IMG/VR virus record: IMGVR_UViG_3300044646_001858
Span: 1-26,405 of that record
Length of the DNA: 26,405 nt
Strand: one strand, 5' to 3'
From: a virus
Under the pieces are notes generated by a model. It saw only the letters and a list, made by a program, of their open reading frames with translations, was not told the DNA's origin and searched no databases. Made by a program: the position numbers and the translations under genes. Every line of letters starts with the position of its first letter. Position 1 is the first letter of the stretch. Shown here in pieces: positions 6,063 through 25,762 of this stretch.

Positions 6063-6386
6063 ATGGAAATTGAATCCCGAGAACTCCTGAGTCTGCTGCA
6101 AAGCATCGATGTATCGCTGCAGATTTTGGCGCAAAACAAAACAAAAGCAGCAAAAACTGTATTTGTGTCAAAGAAAGTGATCGCCTCTCGCTTAGGCGTG
6201 CCTCCTGTAACAATCGACAAGCTGATCTACCAAGGAATTACATCAGGTGGTAAATCCGGCCTTGTTGAACTGCGCCATTACTGTAAGCTAGATCCGACAG
6301 AACAAAATACTTCTAACTTTCTGTTCGATCCCGTGCAAATAACCACGGACGCTTGGGCTTCTTTCACTAACTACGACAATGTTTAA
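6063..6386 (+). CDS. Small HTH protein
   Basis: This 107-residue protein has an N-terminal helix (SRELLSLLQSIDVSLQILAQ) that could dimerise. An HTH follows at about residues 53-80 (SKKVIASRLGVPPVTIDKLI), followed by a short basic/Gly wing. The pattern resembles MerR/excisionase-type HTH proteins. It opens the second half of the rightward cassette after a hairpin-rich gap. Its stop overlaps the next start (ATGTTTAA). A regulator role is inferred. Confidence 0.55.
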   Translation: MEIESRELLSLLQSIDVSLQILAQNKTKAAKTVFVSKKVIASRLGVPPVTIDKLIYQGITSGGKSGLVELRHYCKLDPTEQNTSNFLFDPVQITTDAWASFTNYDNV

Positions 6387-6795
6387 TTCAAACAAAACAA
6401 AACAAGCATTTAAAAACGTCTTTGGATTCTCGGAAATTCAAAATCGCATCGCTTTAAACACGGTCAAGATGATCGTGGGCGATATGGTGACTTTGTACTC
6501 AGAGTTCAAGAAAAATGAAGGGTCCGGAGCTCTGTTTTTTATCCCTTCGAATCCGAAGTGTTCACGCTATGTGACAATCTCGGACATCCAAAAAGACATC
6601 ATTTTGTCTGAGGAGTTGATGGACAAACCTCTGACAGAATTTCTACGCAAATTGGGAAATATCGTCGAAAAACACGAAGACGAAGAGAAACCCATCGTGG
6701 TGCTGGTGACAGAGAGCGGTATGAGTATTCATATCGTTAATCCTGACGAAGTTTCTGACAACATTACGGATTATTTGACCGATGCCGCTAGCTAG
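6379..6795 (+). CDS. Hypothetical alpha/beta protein
   Basis: This 138-residue protein overlaps its neighbours at both ends (8 bases upstream, 14 downstream), which supports translation as part of the cassette. It has helices at the N-terminus and an IVVLVTE...SIHIVNPDE strand pair near residues 105-125, with an acidic linker (KHEDEEKP). No cysteine cluster, signal or transmembrane segment is seen. I do not recognise the family. Confidence 0.55.
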   Translation: MFNSNKTKQAFKNVFGFSEIQNRIALNTVKMIVGDMVTLYSEFKKNEGSGALFFIPSNPKCSRYVTISDIQKDIILSEELMDKPLTEFLRKLGNIVEKHEDEEKPIVVLVTESGMSIHIVNPDEVSDNITDYLTDAAS

Positions 6796-18559: not shown

Positions 18560-19609
18560 TCAAGCGTTGAATGAGTAGGCAATGGTGGCGAAGTCAGCGT
18601 TCAGGAGTTCGAAACCTGCGTACAGGCTCCAAATCATCATGATGAAACGGCTGAAATCGTCATTGTTGTTGAGCAGCACTTGGGCGTTGTTACCGCCGAT
18701 GCCGACACCAACAGACTGCGGACCGAAGAACATACCGATAGCAGACTCGTACGAAGACGAAGTACCGCCGATGGTCGCAGTTTGGCTCTGCGAAGGCATG
18801 TTGGTCGATTCGAAGAAGCGAACACCTTCGAACACGAAACCGGTCGGCATGATCGGCTCACCGGCCACGAAGGTGGCTTGGCCGAAGCCCTGACCCATGT
18901 AGATGGCAGCGTTGGGCTGCATCGAGGACATCAGGGGGTTGATCTGCCCATTGCCGGGATAACGAGCAACTTCACGGAAGTCGCTGTTCTGGCGCAGGTG
19001 CATCAGGAAAGTAGGATCGCAAACGCAGCGATAGAAACCATCCTGGTAGGTAGGAGTGTTCCGCTTACGCAGGCTCTTCACCACGCGCAGCAGGTCATCC
19101 TTAACGTCGAACTTAGCTTGCTCGGCGTTGGCGTAGGTGAGGCTACCGACGGCGAGATCACCGGGGTAGTAGTAACCGCCTTGGCTGTCAGAAGACTGAC
19201 CCTTGGAAACAGCTTTCAGGAGTTCGTTGATGAACACCCGATCACGCCAACGACGATAGTCGTCGAGCAGAGTCAGGGAGCCGATCGACTGGTGGAAAGC
19301 GGTAAGGTTACCGGTATCCAACAAGAGGCGTTGAGCAGTAATAAGGGTTTCGCGAGCAATCTTAAAGGTGCTCGGCTGAGTGGGATCGGAAGGGTCCGCA
19401 GGACCGGTGTACTCACGAAGAGTAACCAGTACTTTGTCCTTCACAATGTTTCTGCTGTTGGCAGTACCGATGGTCTGCTCAGCAGTGCGCTCCCGAGACT
19501 CCTTAGAGCCAGGGTTGCCCCAGAAACGATAACGGTCAAGCTGAACGGTCTGGCCGGGTTGTTTGGAAAAGTCGTGAACAACACGTGTTAGGATTTGCGG
19601 GTTCAAATC
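18560..19609 (-). CDS. Major capsid protein, exon 2
   Basis: This 349-residue segment starts DLNPQILTRVVHDFSKQPGQ, continues TVQLDRYRFWG and RETLITAQRLLLDTGNL, and later has VKSLRKRNTPTYQDGFYRC, HLRQNSDFREVARYPG and GFVFEGVRFFEST. This ordered set resembles N4 gp56-like, HK97-fold major capsid proteins. An apparent GTG at 19612 could open it, but no Shine-Dalgarno site precedes that codon. Group I intron core elements end just upstream, and exon 1 at 20710-20802 supplies the missing N-terminus. Joined, the protein has about 380 residues. High G+C and codon choice suit strong expression. The structural family is inferred from pattern. Confidence 0.75.
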   Translation of the reverse strand, partial: DLNPQILTRVVHDFSKQPGQTVQLDRYRFWGNPGSKESRERTAEQTIGTANSRNIVKDKVLVTLREYTGPADPSDPTQPSTFKIARETLITAQRLLLDTGNLTAFHQSIGSLTLLDDYRRWRDRVFINELLKAVSKGQSSDSQGGYYYPGDLAVGSLTYANAEQAKFDVKDDLLRVVKSLRKRNTPTYQDGFYRCVCDPTFLMHLRQNSDFREVARYPGNGQINPLMSSMQPNAAIYMGQGFGQATFVAGEPIMPTGFVFEGVRFFESTNMPSQSQTATIGGTSSSYESAIGMFFGPQSVGVGIGGNNAQVLLNNNDDFSRFIMMIWSLYAGFELLNADFATIAYSFNA

Positions 19610-20709
19610 CACTCTCTGAGTTTTTCATCCTCAGAGCACTGACTATATCTTGCTCCCAAAATGACTCGTTACAATCGTTTTTCTCCCGACCCTGCTGTTA
19701 TTCGAGAGTTGGCATCAAAAATGCCAGATGTCGAAGCAGCAAAAATTCTAGGAGTAACAATGGTGACGTTCTATAAAGCTAGAAAGCAATTAGGTATTCC
19801 ATCTTATTTTGAGCAAACAGGTAAACGAATAAGAAAATCAGGAGAAACTTACTCTTTTATGAGTTATGATGACCGGTATTTTAAGGTCATCGATTCACCT
19901 GATAAAGCTTATTTTTTAGGTTTGCTGGCATCAGATGGAAACATAAGTCCTAGATTAACGGCTGTACGAATTGCTTTAAAAGAAGAAGATAGTCTAATTT
20001 TAGAGCAATTTAGAAAGTTTTTAGGTGAAGATGCACCTGAACTTAAAACTAAGACTTCTAAGATAAATGGGAAGCTTAGTGCTCCTCAAAAAGTCTTAGT
20101 TCTTAGTAAAAAATCCATGGTAGAAGACTTGTTGAAATTAGGAATAACTCCAAACAAATCACACACCTTAAAACTTCTTTGTGACCTCCGTGAATTTAAA
20201 AAGGACTTCCTCAGAGGCGTGTGGGACGGCGACGGATCCATAACAGAACGACGCTTTAAAGTAACCACTGCTTCTGAAGAATTTGCCAACCAACTTCAAA
20301 CTTGGATTCTCGATGTAAGTGCAGTCAAACTCCTTATAAAAAAGGAAACTACACAACGTGGAAAACAATTGTTTAATCTTCCAGGTTACATCAGGGACGC
20401 TAAAGCAATTAGAGCTATTTACGGAGAATCTAAGTTAGGTATTGAACGTAAATTAAAAAATTACGAACAATACTGGGAGCCCCGGCGCTAGTGGACTTCA
20501 TAATCCGGTCTGGATCGTATGTCCTAGTCGATGAACCTTCCACTCATTCCTGAGAGGCTTGGCTGCTGATTGCCCCAGAATCCAAACTTTTTAACCGTTC
20601 ACGCTTACTGTCACCAGTTACGTTGTAGGGTTTGGATCTTTTAAGAAGGGTTTCCAGCAATTCACCGGGTTGTCACTTTCTGATTACTCAGAAAGGCGGC
20701 TGGGTTGTC
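19610..20709 (-). ncRNA. Group I intron in the major capsid gene
   Basis: Read on the minus strand, the classical core elements occur in order. They are P (GTGAATTGCTGGAAACC, 20649-20665), Q (GGCAATCAGCAGCCAAGC, 20557-20574), R (GGTTCATCGACTAGG, 20523-20537) and S (AAGATATAGTCAGTG, 19637-19651). P4 pairs TGCTG with CAGCA; P7 pairs GACTA (R) with TAGTC (S). Hairpins fit P2 (CTTTCTGA-GTAA-TCAGAAAG, 20676-20695), P5 (ATCCAAAC/GTTTGGAT) with a GTGA-capped ACTG/CAGT stem inside, and P9 (CTCTGAG/CTCAGAG, 19614-19636). A small GGA/TCC hairpin after R suggests subgroup IA. The 3' end at G19610 and the 5' end after T20710 are placed by reading frame; each could be off by a few bases. Confidence 0.85.
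19661..20491 (+). CDS. LAGLIDADG homing endonuclease, antisense within the intron
   Basis: This 276-residue protein has two LAGLIDADG helices: FLGLLASDG at residues 85-93 and FLRGVWDGDG at 183-192. Each carries the acidic catalytic residue (D92; D189/D191), so one chain can cut DNA as a pseudodimer. An N-terminal HTH (about 20-45, MPDVEAAKILGVTMVTFYKA) may help DNA recognition. The gene lies between the R and S intron elements, in the P8 loop region, but on the strand opposite to the intron. It must therefore be read from its own promoter, and no good Shine-Dalgarno site precedes the ATG. AT-rich codons unlike the capsid exons support mobile origin. Its expected target is the intron-free capsid gene. 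Confidence 0.85.
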   Translation: MTRYNRFSPDPAVIRELASKMPDVEAAKILGVTMVTFYKARKQLGIPSYFEQTGKRIRKSGETYSFMSYDDRYFKVIDSPDKAYFLGLLASDGNISPRLTAVRIALKEEDSLILEQFRKFLGEDAPELKTKTSKINGKLSAPQKVLVLSKKSMVEDLLKLGITPNKSHTLKLLCDLREFKKDFLRGVWDGDGSITERRFKVTTASEEFANQLQTWILDVSAVKLLIKKETTQRGKQLFNLPGYIRDAKAIRAIYGESKLGIERKLKNYEQYWEPRR

Positions 20710-20802
20710 AACCGGTTCTGCAGCCATCTCTACAACATACGCGGGATGCGGACGGTAGAGCTCTGCACCGAGCAGCTTCGGAAAATCATTGTCGACGAAC
20801 AA
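20710..20802 (-). CDS. Major capsid protein, exon 1
   Basis: A TTG start at 20802-20800, preceded by GGAGG with 8-base spacing (20815-20811), opens 31 codons: MFVDNDFPKLLGAELYRPHP, then AYVVEMAAEPV. The frame continues into the intron and stops at TGA after about 19 more codons. Joining GTT (20712-20710) to GAT (19609-19607) gives MAAEPV-DLNPQILTRVV in frame with the capsid body. The Pro- and Tyr-rich start fits an N-terminal capsid arm. No ATG is available in this frame, so TTG is the start. Confidence 0.75.
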
Positions 20803-20883
20803 AGCGTCAACCTCCGAAAAACTACATACTTAATTTAACGAAAAAACATCTATGTGAACACTTTCTTGTCGCATTTTTAGCGT

Positions 20884-22104: not shown

Positions 22105-23016
22105 TCAGGCTTGATCCAGGAAAAGAAGCTTGCTGCGGAAAGCTTCAGGACCCATTTGGCTCAGGTAGCGCCAAGCTTGCTCGGGGCTCTGATTCATGAC
22201 TTGGCCAAAGCCTTGCCATTGGATTTGGGGATCAGCGCTAGGAGCGCCAGCACCAGCCGAAGCCGGAACAGCAGGCAGCTGGTCGTAGCGGGGCTGGTAA
22301 TTTTCGGTAGGAGCAGTCTCATCCACAGGGTAAACCTCGGTAAAGAACCGATTGGTGTAATCGGCCAGATGATCCGGGTCAGTAAGGATGGTCTCCATAG
22401 CCAGACCGCGAGCTGCAACATTCTCCAGCACCGAGTGCTGCTGAATCAGTGCATCCTCAAGCACCGTGGCATACTGATTCAGAATGCCGGGAGCTTCAAT
22501 GCCGAAGTGATTAACGACGGCGGTTGTTGCGGGACTTAACTGAGCGCTCTGTTGCGCGTCCGTAGAAGTCGGAGAGGAAGTTTGGGTCGTATACCCGTTG
22601 CTGTACGAGGTCGGCTGAGCCGATGGTGCCTGGTAAAGATACGGTTGGGCCAGTGAACTCTGACTGTACAGTTGAGTATCCGGCATTTGTGCCGGGCTCT
22701 GCTGATACTGTGCTGTCTGGCTGGGGGACGGGGAGAGGCGTGAGACCACCCGTTCCAAACTGCCCATCGCTGCTTCCCACGGATTGGACGGGGAGTAAGC
22801 CGACGGATACTGGCTGGACTGGTTGCTGGTAGAAGGGGCCGTAACCTGTTGTACCGGCGACGGCGCTTGGGGCATAGTTGCCGAAGGCGCCCCCTGGGTA
22901 GTTGCCACCCATTGCGGGTAGGCGGTTGAGCCCATATCCGCCGAGGGAGCGGCCTGAGGGGCTGCTACCGCCGGGGAGACCGGGCTCGGGATCGAAGCTG
23001 GGATCTGCTGGCTCAT
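22105..23016 (-). CDS. Scaffold-like protein overlapping the portal gene
   Basis: This 303-residue frame has a Pro/Gln/Ser/Ala-rich first half (residues 1-160) and a helical second half (about 163-303). The second half includes EAPGILNQYATVLEDALIQQ, VAARGLAMETILTD and a final QAWRYLSQMGPEAFRSKLLF. Position between portal and capsid genes, low complexity and a helical C-terminal region suit a capsid scaffold; this is inference. The first 168 residues overlap the portal C-terminus by 506 bases in another frame. No start codon lies near the portal stop, so translation must begin inside the portal gene. ATG 23016 has only a weak GGGCAG ahead; ATG near 22769 has GGGAAG ahead and is an alternative. 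Confidence 0.65.
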   Translation of the reverse strand: MSQQIPASIPSPVSPAVAAPQAAPSADMGSTAYPQWVATTQGAPSATMPQAPSPVQQVTAPSTSNQSSQYPSAYSPSNPWEAAMGSLERVVSRLSPSPSQTAQYQQSPAQMPDTQLYSQSSLAQPYLYQAPSAQPTSYSNGYTTQTSSPTSTDAQQSAQLSPATTAVVNHFGIEAPGILNQYATVLEDALIQQHSVLENVAARGLAMETILTDPDHLADYTNRFFTEVYPVDETAPTENYQPRYDQLPAVPASAGAGAPSADPQIQWQGFGQVMNQSPEQAWRYLSQMGPEAFRSKLLFLDQA

Positions 23017-24748
23017 AGCTGCCCGAGTAAGTCAGTTCTTGCGCAAGGTGGTCAAACGTCCTATAAAGCAAGGGCGTTAGGTTTAGCCGAGGATCAGCCG
23101 CTAAGGGCGTATTCGGCGCGAGTGGATGTGGCGCTTGCAACATCTGATTCAATAATAGTAGAAATTGCTGAAAAGCGCCCTGAGTTTGTTGAATCATTCG
23201 GAAGGGAAAACCCTTCAACATTTCTGCACGCTCAGTATCCGTTTTATCCGGGAACAAATACTTCAGAGCTTCGACGCTATCAACACCAAGCTCCTGAAGA
23301 TTTCGAACAACAATAGATTTTTGATTTACGTCATAGGCGGTGTCTTCATAAACATCACCTTGGAACCTATAAGTAACTTCCCGATCACCATCAGGTGGTA
23401 GACCGAAAACACCACGTGGGACTTTGTTCTCGGTGACAGCAGTCTGAATAGCAACCGTAACTTGATCTTCGTACTTATTAATTTTCTTTTGATACCTAGC
23501 AACCGACTCTTCTGTTTCTTCTTTAGGTGCGTTAGGGGGTAGCATCCCCATAACCTGAATAAAACTCTCGCGGAAAACCTGCTCTTGATGGTAGAGAATC
23601 ATCTCCAACAACTTGCAGAATCCGTAGGTCAAGAAGCTCTTGTTTTTACGAAGAGCTGTCGCCTGAGCCCGACCCATCAGACCCTTAATCTCCGTGGCAG
23701 TGGCACCAGCCGAGATCGAAATCTCATCGACGCCACCTAAAGCAGTACGAATCTCTTCACGCAGTAATAAAGCGTAACGATTCATGTCCCCGTTTACCGG
23801 GTCCGGAGTCATGTAGCCCACGCGGTCGGAGGGCTCGACGTTCGCAATAATCCGAGGAACTCTTAATCCGCCAAGAGCGGAATTAGAGCCGAACGGTTCA
23901 GCTACCCGAGTAGACGGAGAATCGATGCCACCAAAACCACTTTGACTACTGATTGTGGGCCTGAAAGTCCGATCAGCGTCAGAAGCTTCGACAAGATCGC
24001 TACGTGGACGCGAACTAATCAGCGTGGGATTGCCAAAGAACTCAATATTCTTCGCAATATTCGAAACCATCTGATCATGAAGCACAATCTGCTCCATGAA
24101 CGGTTCGAATTCTCCTTCGCCGTCTGTTCCGCTTGCGTTCGGCTTGTTTAAAACCTCAACCGCAGGAATAAATCCAAGCGTGTTTGGACGCCTATTTTTT
24201 GGCGTTAAAACAGTGCCAGGGTCGAGCTCAAAACTTAATTCACTATTGGATTCAAACTCAGAAATTGTATCTGCAGTAATCGACAGCCTTACATAGCGTT
24301 TATTTTGCCCGTAAGTCTCTGAAGGCAACCCGAGAGCCGAATTGCGAACTTTATAGCTGTAGATAATGATGACTTCTTCAATCTCGCCGTTAATATCGTG
24401 ATAAACCCTGTACTGGTTTTTATTAAAGAAATAAATTTGATATTTGAGCTTTTCATCTGGACGGAAGTAGAACAAACCACAGCCGTCGATCAGAAAATTG
24501 CGGATAACGGCTGGAAAACGAATGTCCAGCTTGTTAAGCGCAATTAAATCCTGTAAAAACTTGTTTCGAGCTTTGTAGGTGTCTTGCTCGCAGTAGAAAA
24601 ACAGACCCTTCTTCATCATCAGCAGCGTCATTTGCTGCAAATGACTCAGAACAACCATAGTGGCCGCCTGTTTACTGCGATCCTGAGTGCGAGCCGACTC
24701 TAGGATCTCATTAAAACGTTGACGGACACTAAGGTTGTCGGCGGGCAT
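22511..24748 (-). CDS. Portal protein
   Basis: This 745-residue protein has an alpha/beta N-terminal half and a long helical middle. Its middle region reads LREEIRTALGGVDEISISAG then ATEIKGLMGRAQATALRKNK, and then KLLEMILYHQEQVFRESF (about residues 330-395). This resembles the stem and wing of SPP1-gp6/T7-gp8-like portals: an Arg/Gly turn, a GATATEIKG block and long helices. It lies at the head of the capsid module next to the scaffold-like gene. The last ~170 residues (from about 578) are Pro/Gly/Ser-rich and coincide with the overlap. The ending RVYDPNFLSDFYGRATERSV is followed by a basic tail. Portal rings form the DNA channel at one capsid vertex. Family assignment rests on pattern and context. 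Confidence 0.7.
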   Translation of the reverse strand: MPADNLSVRQRFNEILESARTQDRSKQAATMVVLSHLQQMTLLMMKKGLFFYCEQDTYKARNKFLQDLIALNKLDIRFPAVIRNFLIDGCGLFYFRPDEKLKYQIYFFNKNQYRVYHDINGEIEEVIIIYSYKVRNSALGLPSETYGQNKRYVRLSITADTISEFESNSELSFELDPGTVLTPKNRRPNTLGFIPAVEVLNKPNASGTDGEGEFEPFMEQIVLHDQMVSNIAKNIEFFGNPTLISSRPRSDLVEASDADRTFRPTISSQSGFGGIDSPSTRVAEPFGSNSALGGLRVPRIIANVEPSDRVGYMTPDPVNGDMNRYALLLREEIRTALGGVDEISISAGATATEIKGLMGRAQATALRKNKSFLTYGFCKLLEMILYHQEQVFRESFIQVMGMLPPNAPKEETEESVARYQKKINKYEDQVTVAIQTAVTENKVPRGVFGLPPDGDREVTYRFQGDVYEDTAYDVNQKSIVVRNLQELGVDSVEALKYLFPDKTDTERAEMLKGFPFRMIQQTQGAFQQFLLLLNQMLQAPHPLAPNTPLAADPRLNLTPLLYRTFDHLAQELTYSGSYEPADPSFDPEPGLPGGSSPSGRSLGGYGLNRLPAMGGNYPGGAFGNYAPSAVAGTTGYGPFYQQPVQPVSVGLLPVQSVGSSDGQFGTGGLTPLPVPQPDSTVSAEPGTNAGYSTVQSEFTGPTVSLPGTIGSADLVQQRVYDPNFLSDFYGRATERSVKSRNNRRR

Positions 24749-24786: not shown

Positions 24787-24927
24787 TTAGCCTTTTTGCT
24801 CCATTTTGCGCTTCATTTTAGCTTTTTTAGCTTTGTGAAGGGCTTCTTTGTGCTTTTCTTTTTTGTCTTCTGAAGCGTTTTTCTCCTCAAAATGCTTACG
24901 GAGACCTTCAGGCATACGATCAGCCAT
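24787..24927 (-). CDS. Small very basic protein (46 aa)
   Basis: ATG at 24927 overlaps the stop of the glycosyltransferase gene (ATGGCTGA). The 46 codons give MADRMPEGLRKHFEEKNASE followed by a Lys/Ala/His-rich helix (KEALHKAKKAKMKRKMEQ). RMPEGLRKHF.EK is a pattern I associate with other short proteins in phage head regions. The basic helix may bind nucleic acid. It fills the gap before the portal gene. Confidence 0.65.
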   Translation of the reverse strand: MADRMPEGLRKHFEEKNASEDKKEKHKEALHKAKKAKMKRKMEQKG

Positions 24928-25762
24928 TTGGAAGCAAATACTCTCTTACACGATCTATCTTAAACAATTCTGGAGGCAAAAGATCATGCGAATACGGAAC
25001 TAAAACGTGATCTTTACGCCCTAACGGGTCAGTCCCACCGGCTTCTGGTTGATATTGCTCGATAAAATCAAGCATTTCCTGGCTATAGGCGGGTGCTACA
25101 GCATTAGGGATGTCGTCATAGCAGTGAGAGAACGATGTTACCTTACGTTTTTTACGATTTGCATCCCCCATCCATGAAAAATGCCACCCTGCATCGCAGT
25201 CACCAACGATATAGTCGTTTGGATTGCAACGAATTTGTGAAAGAGTCTGCTCCAGATGCTCGTGGAGCACAACTGTTCCGCAAGTCCAATTTGTCGGAGG
25301 TTTAGAGGAATCCTGTTCGGGATCAACAACCCTCAAATCCGCACGTCCATAAAACATAGGCATAGACAGTCGGATACAACGCTCGGGATTTGCTGTTGCA
25401 AGTTCGACTGCCTCTAACAAAGCTGAAGGTTTTGGAATCTCGTCTACGTCACTAAAGAAGAAAACAGAATCCGGAGGCGTCATCCGCATACCCACAGCAA
25501 GTGCATCGCGTTGGGCGTATTCCCGCATCCAAGGATTAAACACTTCTTCGGGAGAAGGTAGTTCCACATGGAGAACCTGAAGTTTATCTTCAGGCAAACC
25601 AAGCTCACGAATTGTATCTACGCACGTAAAAGGCTTAGGATCGCCCTTAAATGTTCTGTTTGCATCAGTAATAATAAAACCGTCTACAACGTCTTTGAGG
25701 ATGTTGTAGCGAAGCTCTAACAGCTCTTTTTCGTCAAAATAAAGAAAGCAATCAAAGAGCAC
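24920..25762 (-). CDS. Glycosyltransferase family 17 (GnT-III-like)
   Basis: This 280-residue protein matches family GT17. It has MLFDCFLYFDEKELLELR at the start (known in this family as FDCF...E...L..R), WMREYAQRDAL near residue 78, FFFSDVDEIPKP at 100-111 with the DxD-type metal/nucleotide site, and GWHFSWMG near 192. GT17 enzymes transfer N-acetylglucosamine to glycans; related phage and bacterial proteins act on other sugars. The gene lies between small virion-region genes next to the portal. It may modify virion proteins or the host surface. Substrate is unknown. It overlaps the next small gene by eight bases. Confidence 0.85.
   Translation of the reverse strand: MLFDCFLYFDEKELLELRYNILKDVVDGFIITDANRTFKGDPKPFTCVDTIRELGLPEDKLQVLHVELPSPEEVFNPWMREYAQRDALAVGMRMTPPDSVFFFSDVDEIPKPSALLEAVELATANPERCIRLSMPMFYGRADLRVVDPEQDSSKPPTNWTCGTVVLHEHLEQTLSQIRCNPNDYIVGDCDAGWHFSWMGDANRKKRKVTSFSHCYDDIPNAVAPAYSQEMLDFIEQYQPEAGGTDPLGRKDHVLVPYSHDLLPPELFKIDRVREYLLPNG

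Follow-up and report, generated by a model that had tools for sequence, protein, structure and literature searches.

A portal gene and a scaffold-like gene share about 500 bp in different reading frames in S-EIV1-like cyanophages

In a 26,405-nucleotide stretch of viral DNA (IMG/VR record IMGVR_UViG_3300044646_001858, positions 1 to 26,405; hereafter ‘the window’), the 3' end of a portal gene and the 5' part of a scaffold-like gene occupy the same 506 bp in different reading frames. We read this stretch as a dual-coding region of the head genes, in which the second product is initiated independently inside the portal gene and is most probably the scaffolding protein; as a whole, we give this reading a probability of roughly 0.8. 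Judged by its homologous portal, scaffold-like and capsid genes, the window belongs to an S-EIV1-like cyanophage lineage. The features on which the argument turns are listed here in window coordinates.

18560..19612, minus strand: 3' part of the major capsid protein gene, downstream of the overlap (phrog_1357, major head protein, 2.1e-22)
22105..23016, minus strand: scaffold-like gene (303 aa), in the +1 frame relative to the portal
22511..24748, minus strand: portal gene (745 aa), with residues 578-745 inside the overlap
22511..23016, minus strand: dual-coding overlap of 506 bp (168 codons), both frames open
22607..22621, minus strand: GSADL motif of the portal-frame tail (residues 710-714), conserved in the portal frame within the overlap
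22744..22782, minus strand: predicted helix, scaffold residues 79-91 (NPWEAAMGSLERVVSR region; AlphaFold model, pLDDT about 45-53)
23014..23016, minus strand: ATG, probable internal start of the scaffold-like gene, in 105/105 codon-aligned window-clade sequences
23017..23043, minus strand: probable initiation region without a Shine-Dalgarno sequence, in which portal codons are unusually fixed
23032..23034, minus strand: TGA closing the scaffold frame 5 codons 5' of the ATG; such a stop is found in 115/116 window-clade loci

The first-pass annotation had claimed a 506-bp overlap of two open reading frames in different frames, and its coordinates are exactly reproduced. It had also described the overlap as rich in Pro, Gly, Ser and Gln. 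The combined share of these residues with Thr and Ala is indeed higher in the overlapped parts of both window proteins, reaching 58% in the portal tail (36% in the rest of the portal) and 74% in the N-terminal part of the scaffold-like protein (46% outside the overlap). Since Pro/Gly-rich codons give few +1 stops, an open +1 frame is only moderately improbable in the window alone: given the portal protein, two synonymous-codon null models of 5000 draws each returned P = 0.004 or 0.010 for the window, and across six sequences and both nulls P ranged from 0.003 to 0.08.

The 745-aa product is a tailed-phage portal protein by both sequence and fold similarity. Among PHROGs it matches phrog_20475 (1.4e-162) and the portal families phrog_64 (5.7e-10) and phrog_104 (2.1e-05), while a sequence comparison with the PDB returned no match. 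Its AlphaFold model is of low confidence (mean pLDDT 46.5), and all 24 PDB matches that Foldseek returned for it at E <= 1e-3, starting at 5.2e-07, are portals or portal-containing complexes. On the portal side, the shared DNA would encode a flexible, Pro/Gly-rich C-terminal tail beyond the last predicted core helix.

Relatives were gathered by scanning IMG/VR with both proteins, alignments and the S-EIV1 portal as queries, yielding loci of two clades; because the best 80 matches per scan were taken, the sample leans towards near relatives of each query. All 342 loci examined carry the portal. Twelve in which the portal 3' end was cut off were removed, leaving 330, as were 16 further loci with fewer than 900 bases before the portal end, and identical sequences were collapsed. 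This gave 185 unique loci including the window; the window clade contributes 116 and the S-EIV1 clade 69, with a portal identity of 44% between the two clades. In 185/185 of them the +1 frame stays open across the overlap, compared with 0/185 for the +2 frame and 6/185 for one antisense frame, and it is these relatives, rather than the window alone, that supply the decisive evidence for dual coding. Loss of the frame in relatives, looked for as an outcome that would speak against the overlap, was thus seen in none. Moreover, 13 of the 16 loci with fewer than 900 bases show the same overlap in full, the other three running off the contig end, and the second open reading frame is short in nine unique loci solely because the contig ends.

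The sole annotated phage among the matches is Synechococcus phage S-EIV1 (KJ410740), in which the portal is 42% identical to that of the window over 97% and the scaffold-like protein 30% identical over 74%. Counted from the first ATG, its overlap is 554 bp long (KJ410740 positions 59287-59840) and likewise in the +1 frame. The GenBank record places a downstream CDS of 133 codons after the portal stop (AHV82225, 59863-60264; positions 6328-6729 of our locus L002). The second frame, however, is open and homologous back to the ATG at 59287, inside the portal gene, and from the sequence comparison AHV82225 appears to be truncated at its 5' end, with only the last 133 codons annotated.

Were that GenBank start correct, and translation to begin downstream of the portal stop, the open frame upstream would be no more than a by-product of Pro/Gly/Ser-rich coding. 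The chance openness of single genomes, with the P values given above, is not extreme, and the window does hold a GTG at 22464, in the scaffold frame and 47 nt beyond the portal stop. The earlier statement that a start codon is lacking near the portal stop is strictly incorrect on account of this GTG, but its substance stands, as starts in this neighborhood are not conserved: within -30 to +90 nt, 22/113 and 32/60 relatives have none at all. A frame open in every unique locus and under purifying selection inside the overlap (see below) likewise runs against a downstream start, to which we attach a very small chance.

Constraint on both frames among relatives, by which the first-pass annotation proposed to judge the overlap, is evident both in synonymous diversity and in a two-frame test, and we conclude from codon alignments of 105 window-clade and 69 S-EIV1-clade sequences with long portals that both proteins are under purifying selection in the overlap. 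Portal synonymous diversity, expressed as the observed value over that expected from codon usage, is 0.34 inside the overlap versus 0.85 outside in the window clade, and 0.20 versus 0.75 in the S-EIV1 clade. This is a 2.5- to 3.7-fold drop, and segments of equal size outside the overlap never fall below 0.79 in the window clade or 0.68 in the S-EIV1 clade. The two-frame test (our own OLGenie-like script, with 400 random sequence pairs per clade and a bootstrap over codons) gave the scaffold frame a dNN/dNS in the overlap of 0.47 (0.37-0.56) in the window clade and 0.27 (0.20-0.34) in the S-EIV1 clade. Two non-overlapping parts of the portal, serving as controls, gave 0.78-0.92, and the alternative-frame ratio of the overlap's +2 frame was 1.79 and 2.10, respectively. 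Among S-EIV1-clade sequences, the stretch directly 5' of the ATG also has a low +1 control ratio, 0.51 (0.34-0.83), with few differences to count. For the portal frame, dNN/dSN in the overlap is 0.40 (0.30-0.52) in the window clade and 0.58 (0.42-0.76) in the S-EIV1 clade, against 0.04-0.08 in the two control parts, where the ratios are approximate because some site classes (dSN, dSS) are saturated. The portal tail is therefore under weaker but real constraint; within it, G710, S711 and D713 are invariant in 55 sequences.

Low synonymous diversity might alternatively reflect recent recombination, or an element at the RNA or DNA level, with no second protein involved. Consistent with this, synonymous constraint extends 5' of the ATG, where the second frame is absent and the overlap does not account for it; it begins at about codon -63 in the window clade and at about codon -89 in the S-EIV1 clade, running to codon -1 in both. 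The substitutions inside the overlap are nevertheless frame-specific, as the contrast between the +1 ratios (0.47 and 0.27) and the +2 ratios (1.79 and 2.10) attests. An RNA structure at the start was also considered and rejected, the folding energy being no better than that of shuffles (z = +1.2). We regard an explanation by an element or by recombination as extremely improbable, and purifying selection on two proteins as the better account of the overlap itself.

Two stretches of the portal gene upstream of the overlap deserve separate mention. In the window clade, about 60 portal codons at about 23017-23206 (minus strand) are under a milder synonymous constraint, which the overlap does not explain. 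In S-EIV1, a sharp synonymous block lies at positions 5484-5519 of L002, about 225-267 nt before the scaffold-like start, where about 12 portal codons are nearly invariant across the clade (observed over expected 0.11-0.24, compared with about 0.9 just upstream). This block is possibly a promoter or another element within the portal gene; as a repeated promoter or operator it was rejected, since the S-EIV1 genome contains no second close copy.

As for how the second protein is made, we are confident in independent internal initiation over frameshifting, because the ATG is universal and, in the S-EIV1 clade, preceded by an invariant Shine-Dalgarno sequence within the portal gene. The first in-frame ATG stands at a fixed place in 115/116 window-clade and 69/69 S-EIV1-clade loci, with an in-frame stop 1-5 codons before it; the 116th window-clade locus has lost the usual upstream stop, and an ATG in the same sequence context is still present there. 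No in-frame ATG other than that at 23016 is present in all codon-aligned sequences (105/105 and 69/69), and internal starts deeper in the scaffold frame, for example at codons 28 and 84, were set aside as not universal. The portal Tyr codon at the ATG is TAT in 105/105 window-clade sequences, compared with 51% TAT elsewhere. On such sequence evidence, the claim that translation of the second protein begins inside the portal gene, with 168 codons read twice, holds.

The context of this ATG differs between clades. In the S-EIV1 clade, the Shine-Dalgarno sequence aaaaggagatgagttATG lies inside the portal gene ahead of the ATG, and all 69 loci have a motif of this kind; aaaaggagatgagtt precedes the ATG in 68/69, the remaining locus having one variant. 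The portal codons there are Lys AAG and Glu GAG in 69/69, versus 35% and 33% elsewhere in the portal, where AAA and GAA prevail. Shine-Dalgarno-like AGAGG or GAGG also stands ahead of the ATG in two more divergent loci, L344 and L345 (described below). The window clade, in contrast, has no Shine-Dalgarno-like motif before the ATG in any of its 116 loci. The same rule is positive for 5/21 window genes, so starts that lack such a motif are ordinary in the window. In the window clade, the portal codons just 5' of the ATG are nearly fixed, contrary to usage elsewhere in the gene, as TCG (103/105; 16% elsewhere), AGC (103/105; 22%), TAC (100/103; 49%) and GAA (104/104; 54%). Initiation inside the portal gene, at the ATG found at 23016 in the window, would thus draw on a conserved start region lacking a Shine-Dalgarno sequence in the window's clade; in S-EIV1-like phages it would use a clear Shine-Dalgarno sequence, and in the two more distant loci a similar motif, yielding the second protein in each case.

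The first-pass annotation had offered a programmed frameshift as its alternative, whereby some portal ribosomes would shift by +1 and produce a portal-scaffold fusion. The frames are indeed related by +1 over some 500 nt, and a shift anywhere in that stretch would fuse the two proteins. To keep the conserved scaffold N-terminus, however, the shift would have to happen after the upstream stop and before the ATG, a space of 1-5 codons. Neither the universal ATG nor the Shine-Dalgarno sequence found in 69/69 S-EIV1-clade loci is required for a shift, and no classical +1 slippery sequence was seen by eye in the start contexts. The alternative is thus unsupported, and we consider it most unlikely. 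Scaffolds are required at copy numbers far above the twelve subunits of the portal, and a separate start would let the scaffold far outnumber the portal.

The second protein is likely the head scaffolding protein, an assignment based on position and architecture and not on homology. We favor this role because the gene lies between the portal and capsid genes and because its product has a predicted disordered N-terminus and a helical C-terminal part. The position between the portal and the major capsid protein genes is seen in the window and in the distant loci L343 and L348. The AlphaFold model, mostly of low confidence (mean pLDDT 48.9), has a disordered N-terminus followed by helices at residues 162-226 and C-terminal helices at 263-301 with pLDDT near 80; residues 79-91 form the only helix predicted in residues 1-160. 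On the scaffold side, the shared DNA would accordingly be read as a disordered arm rich in Ser, Gln, Ala and Pro, in which a single helix is predicted. Scaffolds usually combine a disordered N-terminus and a helical C-terminus, and scaffold and portal both act inside the procapsid.

Searches of PHROGs, Pfam and PDB sequences and by Foldseek gave no match between the second protein and known scaffold families. Foldseek returned nothing for the model at E 1e-3 or better, and the top Pfam match is to an unrelated family from eukaryotes, at 0.12 with the window protein and 2.3e-4 with the best-matching of 21 relatives. Because scaffolds are very diverse, the missing family match weighs against membership of a known class rather than against the function. 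Still, with dual coding taken as correct, the second protein might be some other inner-head or head-assembly protein, such as an inner capsid or portal-associated protein. This lack of homology to any known scaffold agrees with such a role, as does an extra gene that separates the second gene from the capsid gene in the window and in loci L343 and L349. The canonical portal-to-major-capsid position, kept in the window and in distant relatives, and the scaffold-like order of disorder and helices point the other way, and family searches with 16 window proteins named no other scaffold candidate. We rate a role other than scaffolding as rather unlikely, and retain the scaffolding protein as the probable identity.

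The neighboring genes have features of their own. The window's major capsid gene appears to be split (18560-20880, minus strand) into a 5' part, encoding ...DNDFPKLLGAELYRPHPAY... within 20880-20496, and a 3' open reading frame at 19612-18560, which is 68% identical to the uninterrupted capsid protein of L343, a member of the S-EIV1 clade. The interval separating the two parts contains a group I intron match (RF00028, 20669-20481) that scores 43.7 bits (E 3.2e-9), short of the gathering score of 50, together with an endonuclease open reading frame encoded on the other strand (19661-20491, phrog_4645). Just upstream of the portal gene, positions 24920-25762 (minus strand) encode a glycosyltransferase family 17 domain (PF04724, 2.2e-16).

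A scan of genome contigs added two loci, L344, which is carried by Nodosilinea nodulosa PCC 7104, and L343, a metagenome-assembled contig that belongs to the S-EIV1 clade. More divergent copies lie on the viral contig L345, on plasmid pA of Kovacikia minuta (L348) and on a genome stretch from the cyanobacterial phylum (L349); the portal was found in 2/386 genomes of that phylum. All four divergent loci have the +1 overlap, at 683 bp (L344), 584 bp (L345), 542 bp (L348) and 344 bp (L349), and three of the four lie in genomes or plasmids of cyanobacteria. A profile built from the scaffold-like family matches the Nodosilinea protein at E 9.5e-16, the match beginning at residue 76, within the overlap, and running to the protein's end. 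Motifs within the overlap, judged by eye from an alignment of six lineages and weak in L348 and L349, recur in several of them: a P-x-P-x-P-G-like stretch and a G-S-A-D-L region in the portal frame, the latter having a related motif in most of the divergent lineages, and the segment around helix 79-91 in the second protein.

On which frame is older, codon usage points both ways: it is better in the portal frame in L002 and L275, and better in the scaffold frame in the window and, marginally, in L142. Because both proteins carry cross-lineage motifs within the overlap and codon usage is inconsistent, the overlap could also stem from one gene extending into the other rather than from overprinting in the strict sense. 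More tentatively, the overlap may be an ancestral, selectively maintained trait of a whole lineage of cyanobacterial tailed phages, spanning free phages and genome-borne copies; it would perhaps be kept for tying the portal's flexible inner tail and the scaffold's disordered arm, which would be partners inside the procapsid, to one stretch of DNA and to one internal start that sets their very different copy numbers. We put this forward as a possibility of somewhat less than even odds.

An overlap of about 500 bp joining two head-assembly genes has thus persisted through a portal divergence to about 33-44% identity. The overlap offers a natural data set of hundreds of sequences on two proteins evolving on shared DNA. 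Moreover, it corrects the annotation of S-EIV1 and probably that of many metagenomic relatives, and it names a candidate for the lineage's missing scaffold. S-EIV1-type phages accounted for 3.3% of cyanophage content in one marine survey (PMC5332604).

Within the lineage, S-EIV1 and its environmental relatives have the +1 portal overlap just as the window does, and they differ in the start: S-EIV1 has a strong Shine-Dalgarno sequence before the internal ATG, whereas the window clade has none. Further afield, lambda C/Nu3 has its scaffold and protease in one and the same frame. In-frame nesting of a scaffold gene within a protease gene is described as common, the KS10 protease/scaffold pair being nested in the same frame (PMC2628397). 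The arrangement reported here resembles lambda C/Nu3 and KS10 in that a scaffold would arise from an internal start in another head gene, allowing separate dosage of the two proteins; unlike them, it uses a different frame, has the portal as its partner and involves unrelated protein sequences. For the tail chaperone of the lambda G/GT type, a slippery sequence is described as causing a frameshift (PMC2628397). There, too, one region feeds two products in different frames, but the conserved start codon found here, with a Shine-Dalgarno sequence in one clade, points to separate initiation.

Two proteins are also read from one stretch in different frames in lambda Rz/Rz1, a nested lysis pair, and in phiX174 D/E. 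The latter is an out-of-frame overlap of 279 nt in a small ssDNA phage (PMC8227390). Unlike both, the present case has two head genes that overlap at their ends, over 344-683 bp, in a tailed dsDNA phage. Overlaps in the genomes of large dsDNA viruses are usually short. For surveyed viral +1 overlaps, a median of 14 nt is given (PMC8903798). Among the papers searched, which include few subscription titles and not the S-EIV1 paper, we recognized none that describes an out-of-frame overlap between portal and scaffold genes. The portal/scaffold overlap differs from the known overlaps in its partner (the portal), in its frame and in its length.
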